Positions 15,779-22,079 of a DNA stretch of 64,000 nucleotides are shown here, one piece after another. How positions within the stretch are numbered: the first letter of the stretch is position 1; each line of letters starts with the position of its first letter. The notes below the pieces were generated by a model. It worked only from the letters and a program-made list of their open reading frames with translations. It was not told the origin of the DNA and ran no database searches. Source of the stretch: Cupriavidus basilensis (GTDB lineage Bacteria; Pseudomonadota; Gammaproteobacteria; Burkholderiales; Burkholderiaceae); NCBI RefSeq assembly GCF_008801925.2, contig NZ_CP062803.1, positions 2,604,001-2,668,000 on the forward strand, in the 5' to 3' direction. The position numbers and the translations under genes are program-made.

Positions 15779-15865
15779 GCCCAGGTGGCGAAATTGGTAG
15801 ACGCACTAGGTTCAGGTCCTAGCGGTGGCAACACTGTGGAGGTTCGAGTCCTCTCCTGGGCACCA
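15779..15865 (+). tRNA. tRNA-Leu, anticodon CAG
   Basis: This 87-nt class II tRNA has an encoded CCA end. The acceptor stem GCCCAGG (15779-15785) pairs with CCTGGGC (15855-15861). The anticodon stem CTAGG/CCTAG encloses loop TTCAGGT with anticodon CAG, which reads CUG, the dominant leucine codon in this GC-rich genome. A long variable arm and a T-loop GTTCGAGTC are present. It is a single gene between its own promoter and terminator. Confidence 0.98.
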
Positions 15866-16338: not shown

Positions 16339-16773
16339 ATGACCACCAGCAGCCGATTCGCCGTTGCCGTCCATATCCTCACCTTGCTGGCCAGCGCCGC
16401 GGGGCCCTTGCCGTCGTCGCTGATCGCGGGCAGCGTGGGCACGAACCCGGTCCTGATCCGCCGCCTGGTCAGCCAGTTGGCCGAGGCGGGGCTGGTGAGC
16501 ACGGTGATGGGGAGCAACGGCGGCGCCTCGCTGGCGCGTGCGGCGGCATCCATCACGTTGCTCGATGTGTTCCGTGCGGTGGAGTCGGCCACGCTGATCG
16601 CGCCGCACCACAGCGTGCCCAATCCGGCGTGCATGGTGGGACGGGAAATTACCGGCGCGCTGAAGCACGCCGCCGACCGCGCCCAGGCAGCGATGGATGG
16701 TGCGCTGGCCGAGATCACGATTGCCGGCATGCTCGCCGACGTGGAGCGCGCAGCCCGGCAACGCAAGCCGTAA
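16339..16773 (+). CDS. Rrf2-family transcriptional regulator, YwnA type
   Basis: The 144-residue protein has an N-terminal winged helix (residues 1-65: 'RFAVAVHILTLLAS', recognition helix region 'NPVLIRRLVSQLAEAGLV', wing 'GSNGGASLAR') and a C-terminal dimerisation helix. Unlike IscR and NsrR it lacks the three-cysteine Fe-S cluster; only C98, in VPNPACMVG, is present, as in YwnA-type members. A thiol- or ligand-based signal is therefore inferred. It sits 70 bp before an NmrA-like oxidoreductase gene, as ywnA sits near ywnB in Bacillus. Matching palindromes before both genes suggest it represses both. Confidence 0.9.
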   Translation: MTTSSRFAVAVHILTLLASAAGPLPSSLIAGSVGTNPVLIRRLVSQLAEAGLVSTVMGSNGGASLARAAASITLLDVFRAVESATLIAPHHSVPNPACMVGREITGALKHAADRAQAAMDGALAEITIAGMLADVERAARQRKP

Positions 16774-16786
16774 AAATTTTTGTCCT

Positions 16787-16813
16787 GATATGTAACTGAA
16801 ATAGTTTCATATC
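16787..16813 (+). promoter_or_regulatory. Second Rrf2 operator, upstream of the NmrA-like gene
   Basis: GATATGTAACT (16787-16797), five-base spacer, AGTTTCATATC (16803-16813): 11-bp arms with one mismatch. The core TGTAACT-N5-AGTTTCA is identical to the site at 16304-16322. It lies 30 bp before the ATG of the oxidoreductase. Confidence 0.75.
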
Positions 16814-16843
16814 GATATTCAACAGTGCAACAAAGGAGTCAAC

Positions 16844-17455
16844 ATGAAGATCGCAATCATCGGCGCCACCGGCCGTGTCGGCACCCGCCTCATCGACGAA
16901 GCCCTGAGCCGCGGCCACACGGTCACCGCCATCGCACGCCAGGCCGACAAGCTGGCCGCGCGGCCGGGCCTCGCCACGATCAATGCGGATGTCGCGGACA
17001 CCAAGGCCCTGGCGGCCGCCCTCGCCGGCCAGGACGTGGCAATCAGCACAGTACGTTTCCTGCAGACCACGGCGCAACAGATCACCTCCGCGGTCAAGGC
17101 CGCCGGCGTGCCCCGCCTGCTGGTGGTGGGCGGCGCGGGCAGCCTCTTCGTAGCACCGGGCGCGCAACTGGTGGACACGGCGCAGTTCCCGCAAGCCTAT
17201 AAGGCAGAGGCCCTGGCCGGACGGGACTTCCTCAACGCCCTGCGCAATGAGACGGCGATCGACTGGACCTTCCTGTCCCCCGCAGCCCTGTTCGAGCCGG
17301 GCTCACGCACGGGCAAGTTCCGCGTGGGCGAGGAGACGCTGCTCTCCGACGCCAGCGGCAAGAGCTGGATCTCGATGGAAGACTATGCCATCGCCATGAT
17401 CGACGAAGTGGAAAAACCGGCGCACTCGCGCCAGCGCTACACGGTCGCTTACTAA
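16844..17455 (+). CDS. NAD(P)H-binding NmrA-like / atypical SDR oxidoreductase (YwnB-like)
   Basis: The 203-residue protein opens with the Rossmann motif GATGRVG (residues 7-13) in MKIAIIGATGRVGTRLIDE. It continues as a short atypical SDR ('INADVADTKALAAALAGQDV', 'VGGAGSLFVAPG', 'DWTFLSPAALFEPG', 'ISMEDYAIAMIDEVE'). Such proteins bind NAD(P)H and act as quinone or flavin reductases or as redox sensors; the reaction here is unknown. The ATG at 16844 has AAAGGAG eight bases upstream. Its own copy of the Rrf2 palindrome implies control by the neighbouring regulator, probably in response to electrophile or redox stress (inference). Confidence 0.9.
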   Translation: MKIAIIGATGRVGTRLIDEALSRGHTVTAIARQADKLAARPGLATINADVADTKALAAALAGQDVAISTVRFLQTTAQQITSAVKAAGVPRLLVVGGAGSLFVAPGAQLVDTAQFPQAYKAEALAGRDFLNALRNETAIDWTFLSPAALFEPGSRTGKFRVGEETLLSDASGKSWISMEDYAIAMIDEVEKPAHSRQRYTVAY

Positions 17456-17521: not shown

Positions 17522-18811
17522 TCAGCGCCCGGGCCGCGCCAGATAGCCGCGACGCCAGGGCTTGAGCACCGCGATGGCAAGCAGCGCGGTCACGATATCC
17601 AGCGTGATTGCCACGCCGAACACCGGCATCCAGCTGCCCAGCTTCTCGTGCATCAGCGCCGCCAGCGGGCCGCCGAAGATCGAGCCGATGCCCTGCGAGA
17701 TATACAGCCAGCCGTAGTTGGTGGTGGCGTAGCGCGTGCCGAAGGTATCGGTCAACGTGGAAGGAAATAGCGAGAAGATTTCGCCCCATCCCAGGAACAC
17801 CACGCCCGACAGCAACACGAACAGCACCGCGTTCTCCCGGGTGAGCAGCCACAGCGCCATGGCCACGGCCTCCAGCGCGAAGGCGAAGCACATCGTGTTC
17901 TCGCGCCCCCAGTGGTCCGACACCCAGCCGAACAACGGCCGCGTGAGGCCGTTGGTAAAGCGGTCGATGGTCAGCGCCAGCGGCAACGCGGCCATACCAA
18001 ACACCACGGCGCCGGACACACCGAAGTCCTTGGCGAACGAGGCCATCTGCGAGGTAACCATCAGCCCAGAGGTGGACATCATCGTCATCATCGCAAAGAG
18101 CAGCCAGAACAGCGGTGTGCGCAGCATCTGGCGCGTCGGCACATCAACCACACCAGACGCCGCCACCGCACGCGGGTGCGTGGGCGCGAGCTGCGCGCCG
18201 GCAGCCGGCGCGCGCAGCCCCTGCGAGGCGATGAAGCCGATCACCGCGAACAGCAGGCCGAACTGCCACAGCGTGGTTTCCAGCCCCTTGCCTGCCAGGG
18301 CCGACGCGATCGGGAATGTGGTGAGGATCGCGCCCATGCCATAGCCGGCAGCCACCAGGCCCACCGCAAAGCCGCGCCGGTCCGGGAACCAGCGCACCAT
18401 CTGGCCCACTACCCCCACATAGACAATGCCCGTGCCCAGGCCACCCACCACGCCGTAGCTGAGATACAGCATGCCCAGGCTATGCACCTGGGCCGCCAGC
18501 ACCCAGCTCAGGCCGGACAGGACCGTGCCGAGCGCAATCAGCCGGCGCGGGCCGAAGCGCTCGATCAGCGCGCCCTGGAACGGTGAGAAGAACGTCTGCA
18601 GCACGATCAGCAGGGAGAAGGTGACCTGTAGCTCTGAGAGCGGCACGCCGAGCTTGGCCGCGAGCGGCTTGGTAAACAAGGTCCACACATACTGCGGGCT
18701 GGAGATCGCCATCATGCACGCGACACCCAGCGCCAGCTGGATCCAGCGCGTACGCGCCAACGGCAAGGCAGGCGACATGCCGAGTGCCGGGTTATCTGCA
18801 ACAGAACGCAT
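17522..18811 (-). CDS. MFS transporter, oxalate/formate antiporter (OFA) family
   Basis: The 429-residue protein has twelve predicted membrane spans and the OFA-type start 'RWIQLALGVACMMAISSPQY'. Other recognisable parts are 'GPRRLIALGTVLSGLSWVLA' between TM2 and TM3, the TM4-5 segment 'GTGIVYVGVVGQMVRWFPDR' and the central loop before 'RQMLRTPLFWLL'. The ATG at 18811 gives the standard N-terminus; the frame is open further upstream only by chance. OFA members exchange oxalate, formate or related small carboxylates. It lies 157 bp downstream of an HpxW-like amidohydrolase on the same strand, so oxamate import or oxalate exchange is a reasonable inference. Confidence 0.9.
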   Translation of the reverse strand: MRSVADNPALGMSPALPLARTRWIQLALGVACMMAISSPQYVWTLFTKPLAAKLGVPLSELQVTFSLLIVLQTFFSPFQGALIERFGPRRLIALGTVLSGLSWVLAAQVHSLGMLYLSYGVVGGLGTGIVYVGVVGQMVRWFPDRRGFAVGLVAAGYGMGAILTTFPIASALAGKGLETTLWQFGLLFAVIGFIASQGLRAPAAGAQLAPTHPRAVAASGVVDVPTRQMLRTPLFWLLFAMMTMMSTSGLMVTSQMASFAKDFGVSGAVVFGMAALPLALTIDRFTNGLTRPLFGWVSDHWGRENTMCFAFALEAVAMALWLLTRENAVLFVLLSGVVFLGWGEIFSLFPSTLTDTFGTRYATTNYGWLYISQGIGSIFGGPLAALMHEKLGSWMPVFGVAITLDIVTALLAIAVLKPWRRGYLARPGR

Positions 18812-18968
18812 CGAACCACTCCTTGGAAGGGACTTCGAGGAAACCGCAGGCTCTTTGGTGAAGCCTCGGGGAACCAGGCCCGGCGGCGAGCGGCGGCAAA
18901 CCGGGGACGGCCAGCCCAGACCTGGAGAAAGCCAAGCGTCGCCGCGCCGGCACGCGCACAGCGGGTGC

Positions 18969-20573
18969 CTACCAGCTGGCCACCGCGCCGTCGCTGCGCA
19001 GATCGAACCCGCCTTCATAGAGCCCGTCCGCATGCAGCACGATGGCGCCGGCATGCCCCATGGTCTCGTCGTAGGGCCTGAGCATTTCCACCTCGTGGCC
19101 AAGCGCGCGCAGCGCGTCGCACGTGGCTGCGGGAAAGCGCGCTTCGAGCTTGAGGGTGTCGCTGGTCTGGCCCCAGGTCCGCCCCAGCAGCCAGCGCGGC
19201 GCGTCAATGGCGGCCTGCGGGTTCATGCCGAAATGCACGATGCGCGAGAACACGGCGCTCTGCGATTGCGGCTGGCCGTCGCCGCCCATATTCCCGTAGA
19301 CCAGCGTGCGTCCATCGGCCAGGCGCGCCAGTGCCGGGTTGAGCGTATGGAACGGCTTGCGCCCCGGCATCAACGGATTGCGTGCGGCCGGATCCAGCGA
19401 GAAACTGCAGCCACGGTTCTGCCAGTTCACGCCCGAAGCCGGCAGCACGATGCCGCTGCCGAACTCGTGATAGATGCTCTGTATAAAACTGACCGCCACG
19501 CCATCGCCATCGACCACGCCCATCCACACGGTATCGGCCGGCCCAAGGCCGTTGCCCCACGGCAGCACGGCGTCCGGGCGGATCCGGGAAGCGGCGCCGT
19601 CGAGCCAGGGCGGCGCCAGCAGGTCTTGCGGCTCGATTTCCATGTAGGCCGGATCGGTGATATGGCGGTCGCGCACGCCGAATGCCTGCTTGGTGGCCTC
19701 CACGCAGGCGTGCACGAAGGGCGCGCCGCAGGGGTCCATGCCGCTATCCAGCAAGCGGTCCAGCTGGCCAAGGATCAGCAGCGAAACCAGGCCCTGGGTA
19801 GGCGGCGGCATGTTGTAGATCGTGCCGAACGAATGCGCCAGCGACAGCGGCGTCTTCCACACCGCACGGTGCGCGCGCAGGTCATCGAGCGTCAGCGGGC
19901 TGCCCACGTCCGCAAGATCGCGCGCCATGCTTTGCGCGAGTTCGCCCTGGTAGAAATCATCCAGCCCAGTCCTCGCCAGTTGCTCCAGCGTGGCCGCCAG
20001 GCGGGGTTGCCGGAACCGGCTGCCGGGCGCCGGCACGCCGTTGGCGAGGAAGGTTTCGGCAAAGCCAGTGATATCGGCAAGTTCGCCCCTTTTGGCGGCG
20101 ATGCATGCGGACTGGCTGTGCGTGACGGGCACGCCGTCGCGCGCGTAGGCGATGGCATCGGCCAGCAGCCGCGACAGCGGCAGGCGCCCGCCGAGCGCCT
20201 CGTGCGACCATGCCAGCGCCGCTCTCCATCCGGAGATCGTGCCGGCCACGGTGTTGGCCGCCATGCCGCCACGGAAAGGAATCGTGCTCAGGCCGGCATC
20301 ACGATAGCGCGCAATGCTGGCCGCGCCCGCGGCGGCGCCGCAGGCTTCCAGCCCGCGCGGCGCCTCGCCCGGCCGGGCGATCAGCCAGAAGCTGTCGCCG
20401 CCGATGCTGTTCATATGGGGATAAGCCACCGCGATGGTGGCTGCCGCGGCGATCATTGCCTCGACGGCATTGCCGCCCTCGCGCAACACGGCCAGCGCGC
20501 TCTGCGATGCCAGCGCATGAGGCGCCACGGCCATGCCTCGGCTGCCGCGGATGGGATTCAGGTAATGACTCAC
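18969..20573 (-). CDS. Gamma-glutamyltransferase-family Ntn hydrolase; candidate oxamate amidohydrolase (HpxW-like)
   Basis: The 534-residue proenzyme of the GGT superfamily has the substrate-binding start GMAVAPHALASQ (13-24), 'REGGNAVEAM', 'GIGGDSFWL'-like 'SIGGDSFWLI' and 'MPPPTQGLVSLLILG'. The expected autocleavage nucleophile is T348 (DTVWMGVVDGDGVAVSFIQS); cleavage there would give subunits of about 347 and 187 residues. There is no signal peptide, whereas true GGTs are periplasmic. This, the close resemblance in my recollection to Klebsiella HpxW, and the adjacent OFA transporter and FCD regulator suggest cytoplasmic oxamate hydrolysis to oxalate plus ammonia. The start is GTG at 20573. 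The superfamily call is firm; the substrate is inferred. Confidence 0.85.
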   Translation of the reverse strand: MSHYLNPIRGSRGMAVAPHALASQSALAVLREGGNAVEAMIAAAATIAVAYPHMNSIGGDSFWLIARPGEAPRGLEACGAAAGAASIARYRDAGLSTIPFRGGMAANTVAGTISGWRAALAWSHEALGGRLPLSRLLADAIAYARDGVPVTHSQSACIAAKRGELADITGFAETFLANGVPAPGSRFRQPRLAATLEQLARTGLDDFYQGELAQSMARDLADVGSPLTLDDLRAHRAVWKTPLSLAHSFGTIYNMPPPTQGLVSLLILGQLDRLLDSGMDPCGAPFVHACVEATKQAFGVRDRHITDPAYMEIEPQDLLAPPWLDGAASRIRPDAVLPWGNGLGPADTVWMGVVDGDGVAVSFIQSIYHEFGSGIVLPASGVNWQNRGCSFSLDPAARNPLMPGRKPFHTLNPALARLADGRTLVYGNMGGDGQPQSQSAVFSRIVHFGMNPQAAIDAPRWLLGRTWGQTSDTLKLEARFPAATCDALRALGHEVEMLRPYDETMGHAGAIVLHADGLYEGGFDLRSDGAVASW

Positions 20574-20588
20574 GGGACGCCCTGTGAT

Positions 20589-20602
20589 TTATGTATACAT
20601 AA
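20589..20602 (-). promoter_or_regulatory. Perfect palindrome TTATGTATACATAA: probable GntR/FCD operator
   Basis: This 14-bp perfect dyad lies 15 bases upstream of the amidohydrolase start and downstream of the gntR stop. FCD-class GntR regulators commonly bind TNGTATACNA-like sites, which this contains (TGTATACA). On the minus strand TATACA within the palindrome can serve as the -10, so occupancy would block transcription of the enzyme and transporter genes. Confidence 0.8.
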
Positions 20603-20731
20603 TCTTGCTCACAGGAGTCATTGCAACATGCGTGCCACGGCGCATAGCCACCACGGAATGCGCAAAGAAAGGCACAAAGAACAATGGCCGCCCTACGGGC
20701 GGCCATTAGCGGCAGGTCATGCAAGCCTGGG

Positions 20732-21499
20732 TCAGCCGAAGCGCCTGCGCCGCTGCGGTGCGTTGCGCACCGCCTGCTCGGTAGACGGCACAAGGCTGGT
20801 GCGGGCTTGCTCGAGCCGCTCGGTGGTGAGCCGGCTCACCTCGGCACGGCCATCCTCGATATGCGCGGCCAGCAAGGAAACCGCCCGCGGCGCATCGTGC
20901 GCGGCCAGGGCATCCAGGATGGCGGCGTGTTCGTCATAGGTGAGCGCGACACGATCGCCGTAGGCGAAATCCATCCGGCGGATGATGCGGATACGGTCGG
21001 TGACCTGCTGGTGAACCGCGGCAGCCTCGGGGTTGCCAGCGGCATGCATGAGCGCCATGTGGAAGGCTTCATCCAGTGCGGCCACCGTGTTGCCATCGGT
21101 GAGACGCTCGGCGCGCGGCACGCGCCAGATCGCATCCAGCTTGGCCAGGCCAGCAAGGTCGACTTGCCGCGCGGCGGGTTGCTGGCACAGCCGCGTCACC
21201 GCGTGGGTCTCCAGCACGGTGCGCAGTTCGTAGAGCGCCTCGAAGCGGCCCAGGTCGAGCGGCACGACTTCCCAGCCATTGCGGAAGTAGCCGCGCACCA
21301 GGCCGTCGCCCTGCAGGCGCTGCAGGGCCTCGCGCACCGGCGTGCGCGAAATGCCGAGCCGCTCGGCAACGTCGTTCTCGGTGAATCGGTCGCCGGGCAG
21401 CAGGCGAAAGGCAAAGATATCGTCGCGCAGGCTGTGATAGGCCGCCTGCGAACGCGATGCTCGCGCGGCAGCACCCTGCGCGCTCGTTTGCTCGCTCAT
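20732..21499 (-). CDS. GntR-family transcriptional regulator, FadR subfamily with FCD domain
   Basis: The 255-residue protein has an N-terminal winged helix-turn-helix (about 20-85: 'RFTENDVAERLGISRTPVRE', 'LQGDGLVRGYFRNGWEV') and an all-helical FCD effector domain (about 95-230, with 'DEAFHMALMHAAGN' and 'YDEHAAILDALAAHD', whose histidines and aspartates bind metal and carboxylate ligands). FCD regulators usually respond to small organic acids. It starts only 19 bp after the phosphoribosyltransferase gene, so it may be read through from the purA side. It precedes the HpxW-like gene and the nearby palindrome is its likely operator; HpxS of the Klebsiella hpx cluster is also a GntR regulator. 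Confidence 0.93.
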   Translation of the reverse strand: MSEQTSAQGAAARASRSQAAYHSLRDDIFAFRLLPGDRFTENDVAERLGISRTPVREALQRLQGDGLVRGYFRNGWEVVPLDLGRFEALYELRTVLETHAVTRLCQQPAARQVDLAGLAKLDAIWRVPRAERLTDGNTVAALDEAFHMALMHAAGNPEAAAVHQQVTDRIRIIRRMDFAYGDRVALTYDEHAAILDALAAHDAPRAVSLLAAHIEDGRAEVSRLTTERLEQARTSLVPSTEQAVRNAPQRRRRFG

Positions 21500-21518: not shown

Positions 21519-22079
21519 TCAGGCCTGCGAGCTGCCGGCGGCGTGCTTGCCGCGCTTGAGCCAGGCCGCCAGGTTGTGCGGACGCAGCGTGTCGTACTCT
21601 TCGAACGGCTGGTGAATCCAGGGATTCGTCGGCAGGAAGGTCACGTGGTAGTCCGGCTTGACCTTGGAGCAGGCCTTGTACCACAGCACGGACGAGCGCA
21701 CTTCCGTCACGGCCGGATAGCGCTCCTGCAGATGGCGGCCCACGCGCTCCAGCGTGACGCCGGAATCCACCAGGTCATCGACCAGCAGGATCTTGCCGGA
21801 GAGGTCGCCCTTGGTCATGGTGATGTACTGCGCGATATCGAGGTCGCCCTGCTGTGTGCCCGCTGCCTCGCGGTAACTGCTGGTGGCCAGGATGGCCAGA
21901 GGCACGTCGAAGATACGGGACATCTGGTCGCCGACGCGCAGGCCACCGCGTGCCAGGCACAGGATCTTGTCGAACTTCCAGCCCGACTCGTGGACGTTCA
22001 GCGCCAGGCGCGCGATCAGGCTGTGGTAGTCGTCCCACGAGATCCACAGGTTCTCTTCGTCGTTCGATGGCAGGGTCAT
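21519..22079 (-). CDS. Purine-type phosphoribosyltransferase domain protein
   Basis: The 186-residue protein is a type I phosphoribosyltransferase. The PRPP-binding signature ILLVDDLVDSGVTLE is at about residues 97-111, preceded by 'KILCLARGGLRVGDQMSRI' and followed by 'SSVLWYKACSKVKPDYHV'. The sequence resembles xanthine/guanine-type salvage enzymes. In betaproteobacteria it commonly follows purA, as here, with 153 bp between. It would convert a purine base and PRPP to a nucleotide in the cytoplasm. The exact base specificity cannot be read from the sequence. Confidence 0.88.
   Translation of the reverse strand: MTLPSNDEENLWISWDDYHSLIARLALNVHESGWKFDKILCLARGGLRVGDQMSRIFDVPLAILATSSYREAAGTQQGDLDIAQYITMTKGDLSGKILLVDDLVDSGVTLERVGRHLQERYPAVTEVRSSVLWYKACSKVKPDYHVTFLPTNPWIHQPFEEYDTLRPHNLAAWLKRGKHAAGSSQA

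Follow-up and report, generated by a model that had tools for sequence, protein, structure and literature searches.

The locus described here has its closest counterparts in systems that handle oxamate and oxalate. HpxW of Klebsiella (PDB 5hft; Hicks and Ealick 2016, cited in PMC5270733) is an oxamate amidohydrolase. OxlT of Oxalobacter formigenes (8hpj, 8hpk) depends on Arg272 and Lys355, of which Lys355 holds the second carboxylate of oxalate; both residues are reported to be essential and the K355Q mutant to be non-functional (PMC10070484). The L-lactate transporter SfMCT (6g9x) and the eukaryotic monocarboxylate transporters (MCTs) are OFA/MCT relatives by sequence, with a second site devoid of Lys. 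One of the animal MCTs, Chaski, carries oxamate (PMC5775259), which makes oxamate a workable monocarboxylate substrate. In the present work, a three-gene locus encoding a GntR-FCD regulator, an HpxW-type enzyme and an OFA-family carrier was analysed in a stretch of 64,000 nucleotides from Cupriavidus basilensis (contig NZ_CP062803.1, positions 2,604,001 to 2,668,000; hereafter the window), whose source genome comprises 8.94 Mb in 8 contigs.

Like Klebsiella HpxW, the enzyme encoded in the window is a GGT-superfamily (gamma-glutamyltransferase) Ntn-hydrolase with the same processing site. However, Klebsiella hpxW adjoins hpxU, hpxX, a gene for an AtzE amidohydrolase and hpxZ, and an ABC transporter of the amino-acid type is encoded close by, while hpxW in the window is partnered by the regulator and the carrier. 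The AllFGH oxamate carbamoyltransferase pathway of Escherichia coli also involves oxamate, there an allantoin end product, but, unlike the window cassette, it makes oxamate (PMC11326118). We consider it rather probable that the three genes form a self-regulated portable cassette for the uptake and hydrolysis of oxamate, with nitrogen as the gain. The relevant features, in window coordinates, are the following:

17522..18811, minus strand: gene for an OFA-family MFS carrier of 429 amino acids (TIGR04259; match to OxlT 8hpj), predicted to carry oxamate as the monoanion
17693..17695, minus strand: codon of Gln373 of the carrier, aligned with the essential Lys355 of OxlT
17939..17941, minus strand: codon of Arg291 of the carrier, aligned with OxlT Arg272, which binds one carboxylate
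18969..20573, minus strand: gene for the predicted HpxW-type oxamate amidohydrolase, 534 amino acids, GTG start, a cytoplasmic Ntn-hydrolase precursor; the call is based on 5hft as the top solved match for both chains, the residue map and the trees
19530..19532, minus strand: codon of the autocleavage residue Thr348, also the predicted nucleophile; the aligned Thr opens 5hft chain B
20590..20601, no strand assigned: palindrome TATGTATACATA, predicted operator, 28 to 17 bp ahead of the hpxW start
20732..21499, minus strand: gene for the GntR-FCD regulator, 255 amino acids, likely a local repressor (PF00392 and PF07729 above cut-off)
21519-22079, minus strand: phosphoribosyltransferase gene, first in transcription order, followed by those for the GntR-FCD regulator, the GGT-superfamily enzyme and the OFA carrier

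The preliminary description of this DNA had given the limits of the module exactly (17522..21499) and had named the kinds of gene correctly; all three genes are on the minus strand.

The carrier and the Lys355 site

The carrier clearly exceeds the cut-off of TIGR04259, the oxalate/formate antiporter family (406.7 bits vs 335), matches OxlT 8hpj at E 1.7e-56, and falls below the SfMCT family cut-off (309.7, under 320). Besides family membership it shares with OxlT the residues Gln34, Tyr35, Tyr124, Tyr150, Asn268, Arg272 (kept as Arg291) and Trp324, of which Gln34 and Trp324 are not found in SfMCT. It differs from OxlT at Lys355, which corresponds to Gln373 in a gap-free part of the alignment, and at Tyr328, Trp352 and Gln63, replaced by Phe, Tyr and Ile. 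As the latter three changes are mostly common to the OFA carriers linked to oxalyl-CoA decarboxylase (Oxc), they are not markers of the clade of the window carrier. At the pocket-lining columns Gln66, Tyr150 and Tyr348, HpxW-linked carriers have the same residues as OxlT, while Oxc-linked ones have Glu, Phe and Ala.

Among the HpxW-linked carriers, including that of the window, the Lys355 site is occupied by Gln in 21 of 23 and by Phe in two, and Lys is found in none. Lys is present in all nine Oxc-linked OFA carriers that cover the site; this set was built from 18 Oxc genes and held 11 carriers at 9 loci, of which two end-cut carriers not spanning position 355 were excluded. In a sample of 399 Burkholderiales genomes, a carrier with at least 60% identity to that of the window was present in 19 genomes, and 18 others had only carriers with at most 46% identity, the 60% split having been picked after the gap between 60% and 46% was seen. 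The residue was read in 30 loci of this sample: close carriers have Gln in 14 cases and Ala in 5, and Lys is found in 11/11 of the distant group (a second carrier copy in genome G198, with Gln and an in-frame stop, was left uncounted). Gln is also present at this site, together with the conserved Arg, in all of the 120 best-listed relatives from a database of 5.8 billion proteins (the window's own included), and many of them are named oxalate/formate antiporter. In a tree of the combined sets, in which repeats were kept, the 162 rows lacking Lys, other than SfMCT, formed one clade with a support of 0.942, and the inner node of HpxW-linked carriers alone was weak (0.252).

Where Ala occupies the Lys355 site, the carrier has an amidase-like neighbour in four of five loci (L261, L262, L269, L270), the fifth being located at a contig end; this neighbour was checked by Pfam in L270 and assigned in the others by similarity to the c45 amidase. 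Such context suggests a substrate that is related but different for the Ala-type carriers. At these four loci the amidase-like gene takes the place of HpxW, and in L269 a molybdopterin hydroxylase gene is located upstream of it.

In regard to the substrate of the window carrier, the preliminary description had proposed export or exchange of oxalate, and one alternative to our reading accordingly holds that the carrier exports oxalate or swaps oxamate for oxalate, coupling entry of the precursor to exit of the product. The TIGR04259 label is in agreement with it, and an exit for oxalate would be useful in a genome that has no Oxc above cut-off and in which the window carrier is the only TIGR04259 match above cut-off. 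However, the change found at the Lys355 site is the one that abolishes oxalate transport in OxlT (PMC10070484), and Lys is kept both in Oxc-linked OFA carriers of the same order and in 11 more distant Burkholderiales OFA carriers. Because of this replacement the window carrier is unlikely to move oxalate, and we hold the alternative to be improbable. Oxamate is oxalate with one carboxylate swapped for an amide, so a site with the Arg kept and Lys exchanged for Gln would fit oxamate as a substrate.

The enzyme

The protein encoded between the regulator and the carrier scores 406.6 bits with PF01019. Its closest solved relative is Klebsiella HpxW 5hft (E 2.9e-104 for chain A and 1.2e-77 for chain B), followed by 2nlz (1e-73). 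Identity to 5hft amounts to 187/334 residues (56.0%) in the large subunit and 121/186 (65.1%) in the small one, or 59.2% overall, while six aligned paralogues from the same genome do not exceed 36.5% identity to the window enzyme. T348, previously pointed out as the retained autocleavage Thr, aligns with residue 1 of 5hft_B, the start of the processed small subunit of Klebsiella HpxW. The N-terminus alone, judged by eye, is consistent with the earlier statement that the enzyme has no signal peptide.

The substrate pocket was compared at 10 GGT columns, R114, T391, T409, N411, Q430, D433, S462, S463, G483 and G484 (E. coli GGT numbering), the letters being checked in the alignment. Two paralogues were omitted from this GGT-family alignment: L005, which had no tblastn match, and the one at C2:2130229. 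In the first eight columns the window enzyme has C, T, S, Y, R, S, H and T, respectively, thus retaining only the nucleophile Thr391, and G483 and G484 are retained as well. The 5hft letter is identical to that of the window enzyme in eight of the ten columns. The enzyme also misses the curated cut-off of the GGT family TIGR00066 (312.9 vs 357.85 bits). In the IQ-TREE phylogeny, the window enzyme, HpxW and a Cupriavidus group with 41-46% identity to the window enzyme were joined at a node with a support of 100/100, and E. coli GGT was distant. The best match to 5hft, the extensive replacement of GGT pocket residues and the distance in the tree all agree with the earlier proposal of an HpxW-type enzyme rather than a periplasmic GGT, and the assignment as an HpxW oxamate amidohydrolase is supported by these sequence comparisons.

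The 41-46% identical proteins constitute a second GGT-superfamily group, with matches in 22 out of 36 genomes of the genus. Sixteen loci (L023-L038) represent it here, and in the seven members that were aligned the columns of E. coli T409 and G484 are occupied by Thr and Ala, respectively.

Neighbourhoods of hpxW orthologues

Gene context was surveyed at 80 named loci out of 309 confirmed relatives, with neighbouring genes clustered and families assigned from cluster representatives. Within three genes of the orthologue, an OFA carrier was found at 20 loci, TRAP DctPQM transporters at 20, Opp-type ABC transporters at 5, a GntR regulator at 14 and the c45 amidase at 5. All 14 loci with the GntR regulator also have the OFA carrier, the regulator gene being located upstream of hpxW and the carrier gene, so the module of regulator, enzyme and carrier recognized in the preliminary description recurs in this order in 14/80 related loci, along with a conserved predicted operator. 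On a Paraburkholderia plasmid, GntR, hpxW and oxlT follow each other in the same order and are so annotated in the record.

Other orthologues lie among genes of oxalurate and oxamate metabolism. Pseudomonas sp. LS-2 (L055) and Halopseudomonas pelagia (L066) each have a single gene with both AllG and AtzH/HpxZ domains, then an amidase gene and, directly after it, the orthologue, and on an Azospirillum plasmid (L134) hpxZ, an amidase gene and a DUF1116 gene are located within 12 kb of it. No oxalurate or oxamate genes of the kind met in L055 and L066 adjoin hpxW at the window locus itself. In five Cupriavidus-type loci an amidase gene follows that of the carrier; its candidacy as an AtzE/HpxY equivalog was rejected, as the representative reached 184.9 bits vs the cut-off of 425.75.

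Several side observations concern these neighbourhoods. The clusters at L055:3505-11608 and L066:3681-11608 comprise a Rieske oxygenase (in L066 a homologue), an amidohydrolase, an AllG-HpxZ fusion, an amidase and HpxW, and L289:5215-12235 holds AllG along with an amidohydrolase and subunits of a molybdenum hydroxylase; all three look like a route from a heterocycle to oxamate. In the Klebsiella record that has the hpxU, hpxX, AtzE amidohydrolase and hpxZ genes (L131:15001-16544), hpxW is matched in two pieces with no CDS listed there, and it may represent a broken gene, a sequencing error or a gene missing from an incomplete gene table.

The regulator and the palindrome

The regulator scores 72.3 bits for FCD and 56.5 bits for GntR. 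The palindrome TATGTATACATA in front of hpxW was compared in 15 other GntR-HpxW-OFA loci, 14 from the 80-locus set and L133. It is identical in 12 of them, with no further copy in those loci, and the remaining three, one from Variovorax and two from Paraburkholderia, show 1, 3 and 4 mismatches. In L135, which is devoid of an adjacent GntR gene, five mismatches are present. Only a single exact copy exists in the whole source genome, inexact copies not having been searched, and the regulon is likely to be this cassette alone. Taken from sequence conservation, these data point to the palindrome as the predicted operator at which the FCD regulator would act. The formerly drawn analogy with HpxS holds at the level of regulator class only; the regulator annotated beside hpxW in Klebsiella is HpxU, of the MurR/RpiR type.

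Genomic position of the cassette

The neighbouring purine genes, purA (by reading frame) and the phosphoribosyltransferase gene, are both present, and their proximity had been pointed out together with the route proposed earlier. The corresponding junction was compared in 22 other same-genus genomes. In 21 of them no member of the trio is found there, the gene after the phosphoribosyltransferase being NmrA in 19 and tRNA-Leu in two; only one genome (G021) carries the trio at the same junction. Five of the 21 genomes have the hpxW orthologue at other sites. The trio thus breaks into a conserved housekeeping order, and its absence from this junction in 21/22 genomes together with its placement elsewhere in relatives makes the proximity to purA accidental. 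The purine neighbourhood was consequently dropped as functional evidence: the three genes form a portable cassette, and purA just happens to lie nearby. On the other side of the trio, tRNA-Leu (CAG) at 15779-15865 is followed by Rrf2 and NmrA genes (16339-17455), and gene content at this junction is variable within the genus.

Ureide and oxalate genes elsewhere in the genome

The search for ureide genes elsewhere in the genome, suggested earlier, gave a mixed result: one HpxZ and two AtzE-family matches above cut-off were detected, all unlinked to the cassette, but neither AllG nor a TIGR03178 allantoinase above cut-off. HpxZ at C2:2.099 Mb is genuine by NF033625 (L281:1447-1872, L285:17354-19672) and adjoins FAD monooxygenase-like and LysR genes; HpxY was not found among its scanned neighbours, where a very small HpxX could have escaped. 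Among 60 genomes, HpxZ was above cut-off in eight, the matches under cut-off in G042 and G058 being excluded from the count, and seven of these eight have the HpxW orthologue (p 1.5e-5), with 5/5 within the genus. The AtzE-family gene at C2:47 kb (L182:6857-13513) was rejected as a candidate hpx cluster, its neighbours being cyanate lyase, an NMT1-type ABC transporter and a deaminase gene instead; the second match, at C2:2242 kb, is barely above the cut-off (428.5 vs 425.75). AllG as the source of oxamate was likewise discarded, as it has no match in the source genome. TIGR03178 allantoinase was above cut-off in 0/60 genomes, which makes this profile uninformative, and other allantoinase types were not searched.

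Breakdown of oxalate by Oxc was also rejected for this genome, which has no match above cut-off, though such a match is present in 24 out of 36 genomes of the genus. Oxc occurs in seven of the nine same-genus genomes with the HpxW orthologue, so there is no pattern of exclusion between the two.

Proposed function and its alternatives

According to the reading that we prefer, the OFA carrier would import oxamate (H2N-CO-COO-), the retained Arg gripping its carboxylate as OxlT Arg272 does for oxalate and the Gln at the Lys355 site facing the uncharged amide end. In the cytoplasm, HpxW would cleave itself before T348 and split oxamate into oxalate and ammonia. The FCD regulator would probably repress hpxW and the carrier gene at the palindrome until released by oxamate or oxalate.

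The association of carrier and enzyme across the Burkholderiales sample is in line with such a scenario. The HpxW orthologue (E 1e-135 or better) was present in 15/19 genomes that have a carrier of the close group vs 73/399 overall (Fisher 5e-9), in 13 of 14 genomes with a Gln-type carrier (p 1.2e-9), and in 5 of 18 with distant carriers only (p 0.22). Several points weigh against the oxamate cassette, starting with these numbers: the Fisher values treat genomes as independent and ignore phylogeny, the searches for both carrier and HpxW scored only 3-4 candidates per genome, and in one genome with a Gln-type carrier (G133) no HpxW match reaches the threshold. Gln may also suit monoanions other than oxamate, and SfMCT, which transports lactate, has Cys at that site. 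Other transporters are found near many HpxW orthologues (TRAP at 20/80 loci and Opp at 5/80, the latter of which would suit peptides), and the lack of Oxc above cut-off leaves the disposal of oxalate unexplained. As for the enzyme, two pocket positions, Cys78 and Ser390, differ from 5hft (Ser and Ala), and the node uniting the window enzyme with Klebsiella HpxW without the 41-46% identical Cupriavidus group is modest (66.8/71 in IQ-TREE, 0.639 in FastTree). Membership in HpxW therefore leans less on this node than on the best match, the letters in the pocket and the neighbouring genes.

Somewhat less probable still than transport of oxalate is that the substrate is another small monoamide or monoanion, such as malonamate or N-substituted oxamates, and that the enzyme has drifted from oxamate. 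The two deviating pocket positions could be explained in this way, and the amidase genes found after the carrier in five Cupriavidus-type loci or beside the Ala-type carriers suggest wider amide substrates. On the other hand, orthologues 71-73% identical to the window enzyme adjoin AllG, HpxZ and amidase genes of oxalurate and oxamate metabolism, and the Azospirillum protein that has hpxZ and DUF1116 in its neighbourhood carries the same Cys/Ser pair. An ordinary role in peptide salvage, as a gamma-glutamyl hydrolase or transferase, with the carrier taking the released acid, would agree with PF01019 membership and with the Opp-type peptide transporters next to 5/80 orthologues, but it is highly improbable given the score under the TIGR00066 cut-off, the mostly replaced GGT pocket, the apparent lack of a signal peptide and the remoteness of E. 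coli GGT in the tree.

In relation to the preliminary description, the enzyme assignment and the module stand, the oxalate-carrier part is probably wrong, the purine argument falls, and the outcome for ureide genes elsewhere is mixed. Extending the uptake and hydrolysis of oxamate beyond this locus, we would give roughly equal weight for and against the proposition that a proteobacterial clade named oxalate/formate antiporter consists of oxamate carriers, arisen via the same Lys-to-Gln exchange that inactivates OxlT, which would have converted a site for a dicarboxylate into one for its monoamide, and paired with HpxW to scavenge the nitrogen of free oxamate released at the end of allantoin metabolism in other organisms. 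In E. coli growing anaerobically on allantoin, oxamate is left as a main product (PMC11326118). No bacterial oxamate carrier was found in the open-access literature searched, only the animal one (PMC5775259). If true, a dedicated cassette for oxamate uptake and hydrolysis would show who consumes oxamate and would name a bacterial carrier for it. It would also correct database naming, given that the 120 best-listed relatives of the carrier, many of them named oxalate/formate antiporters, are devoid of the essential lysine.

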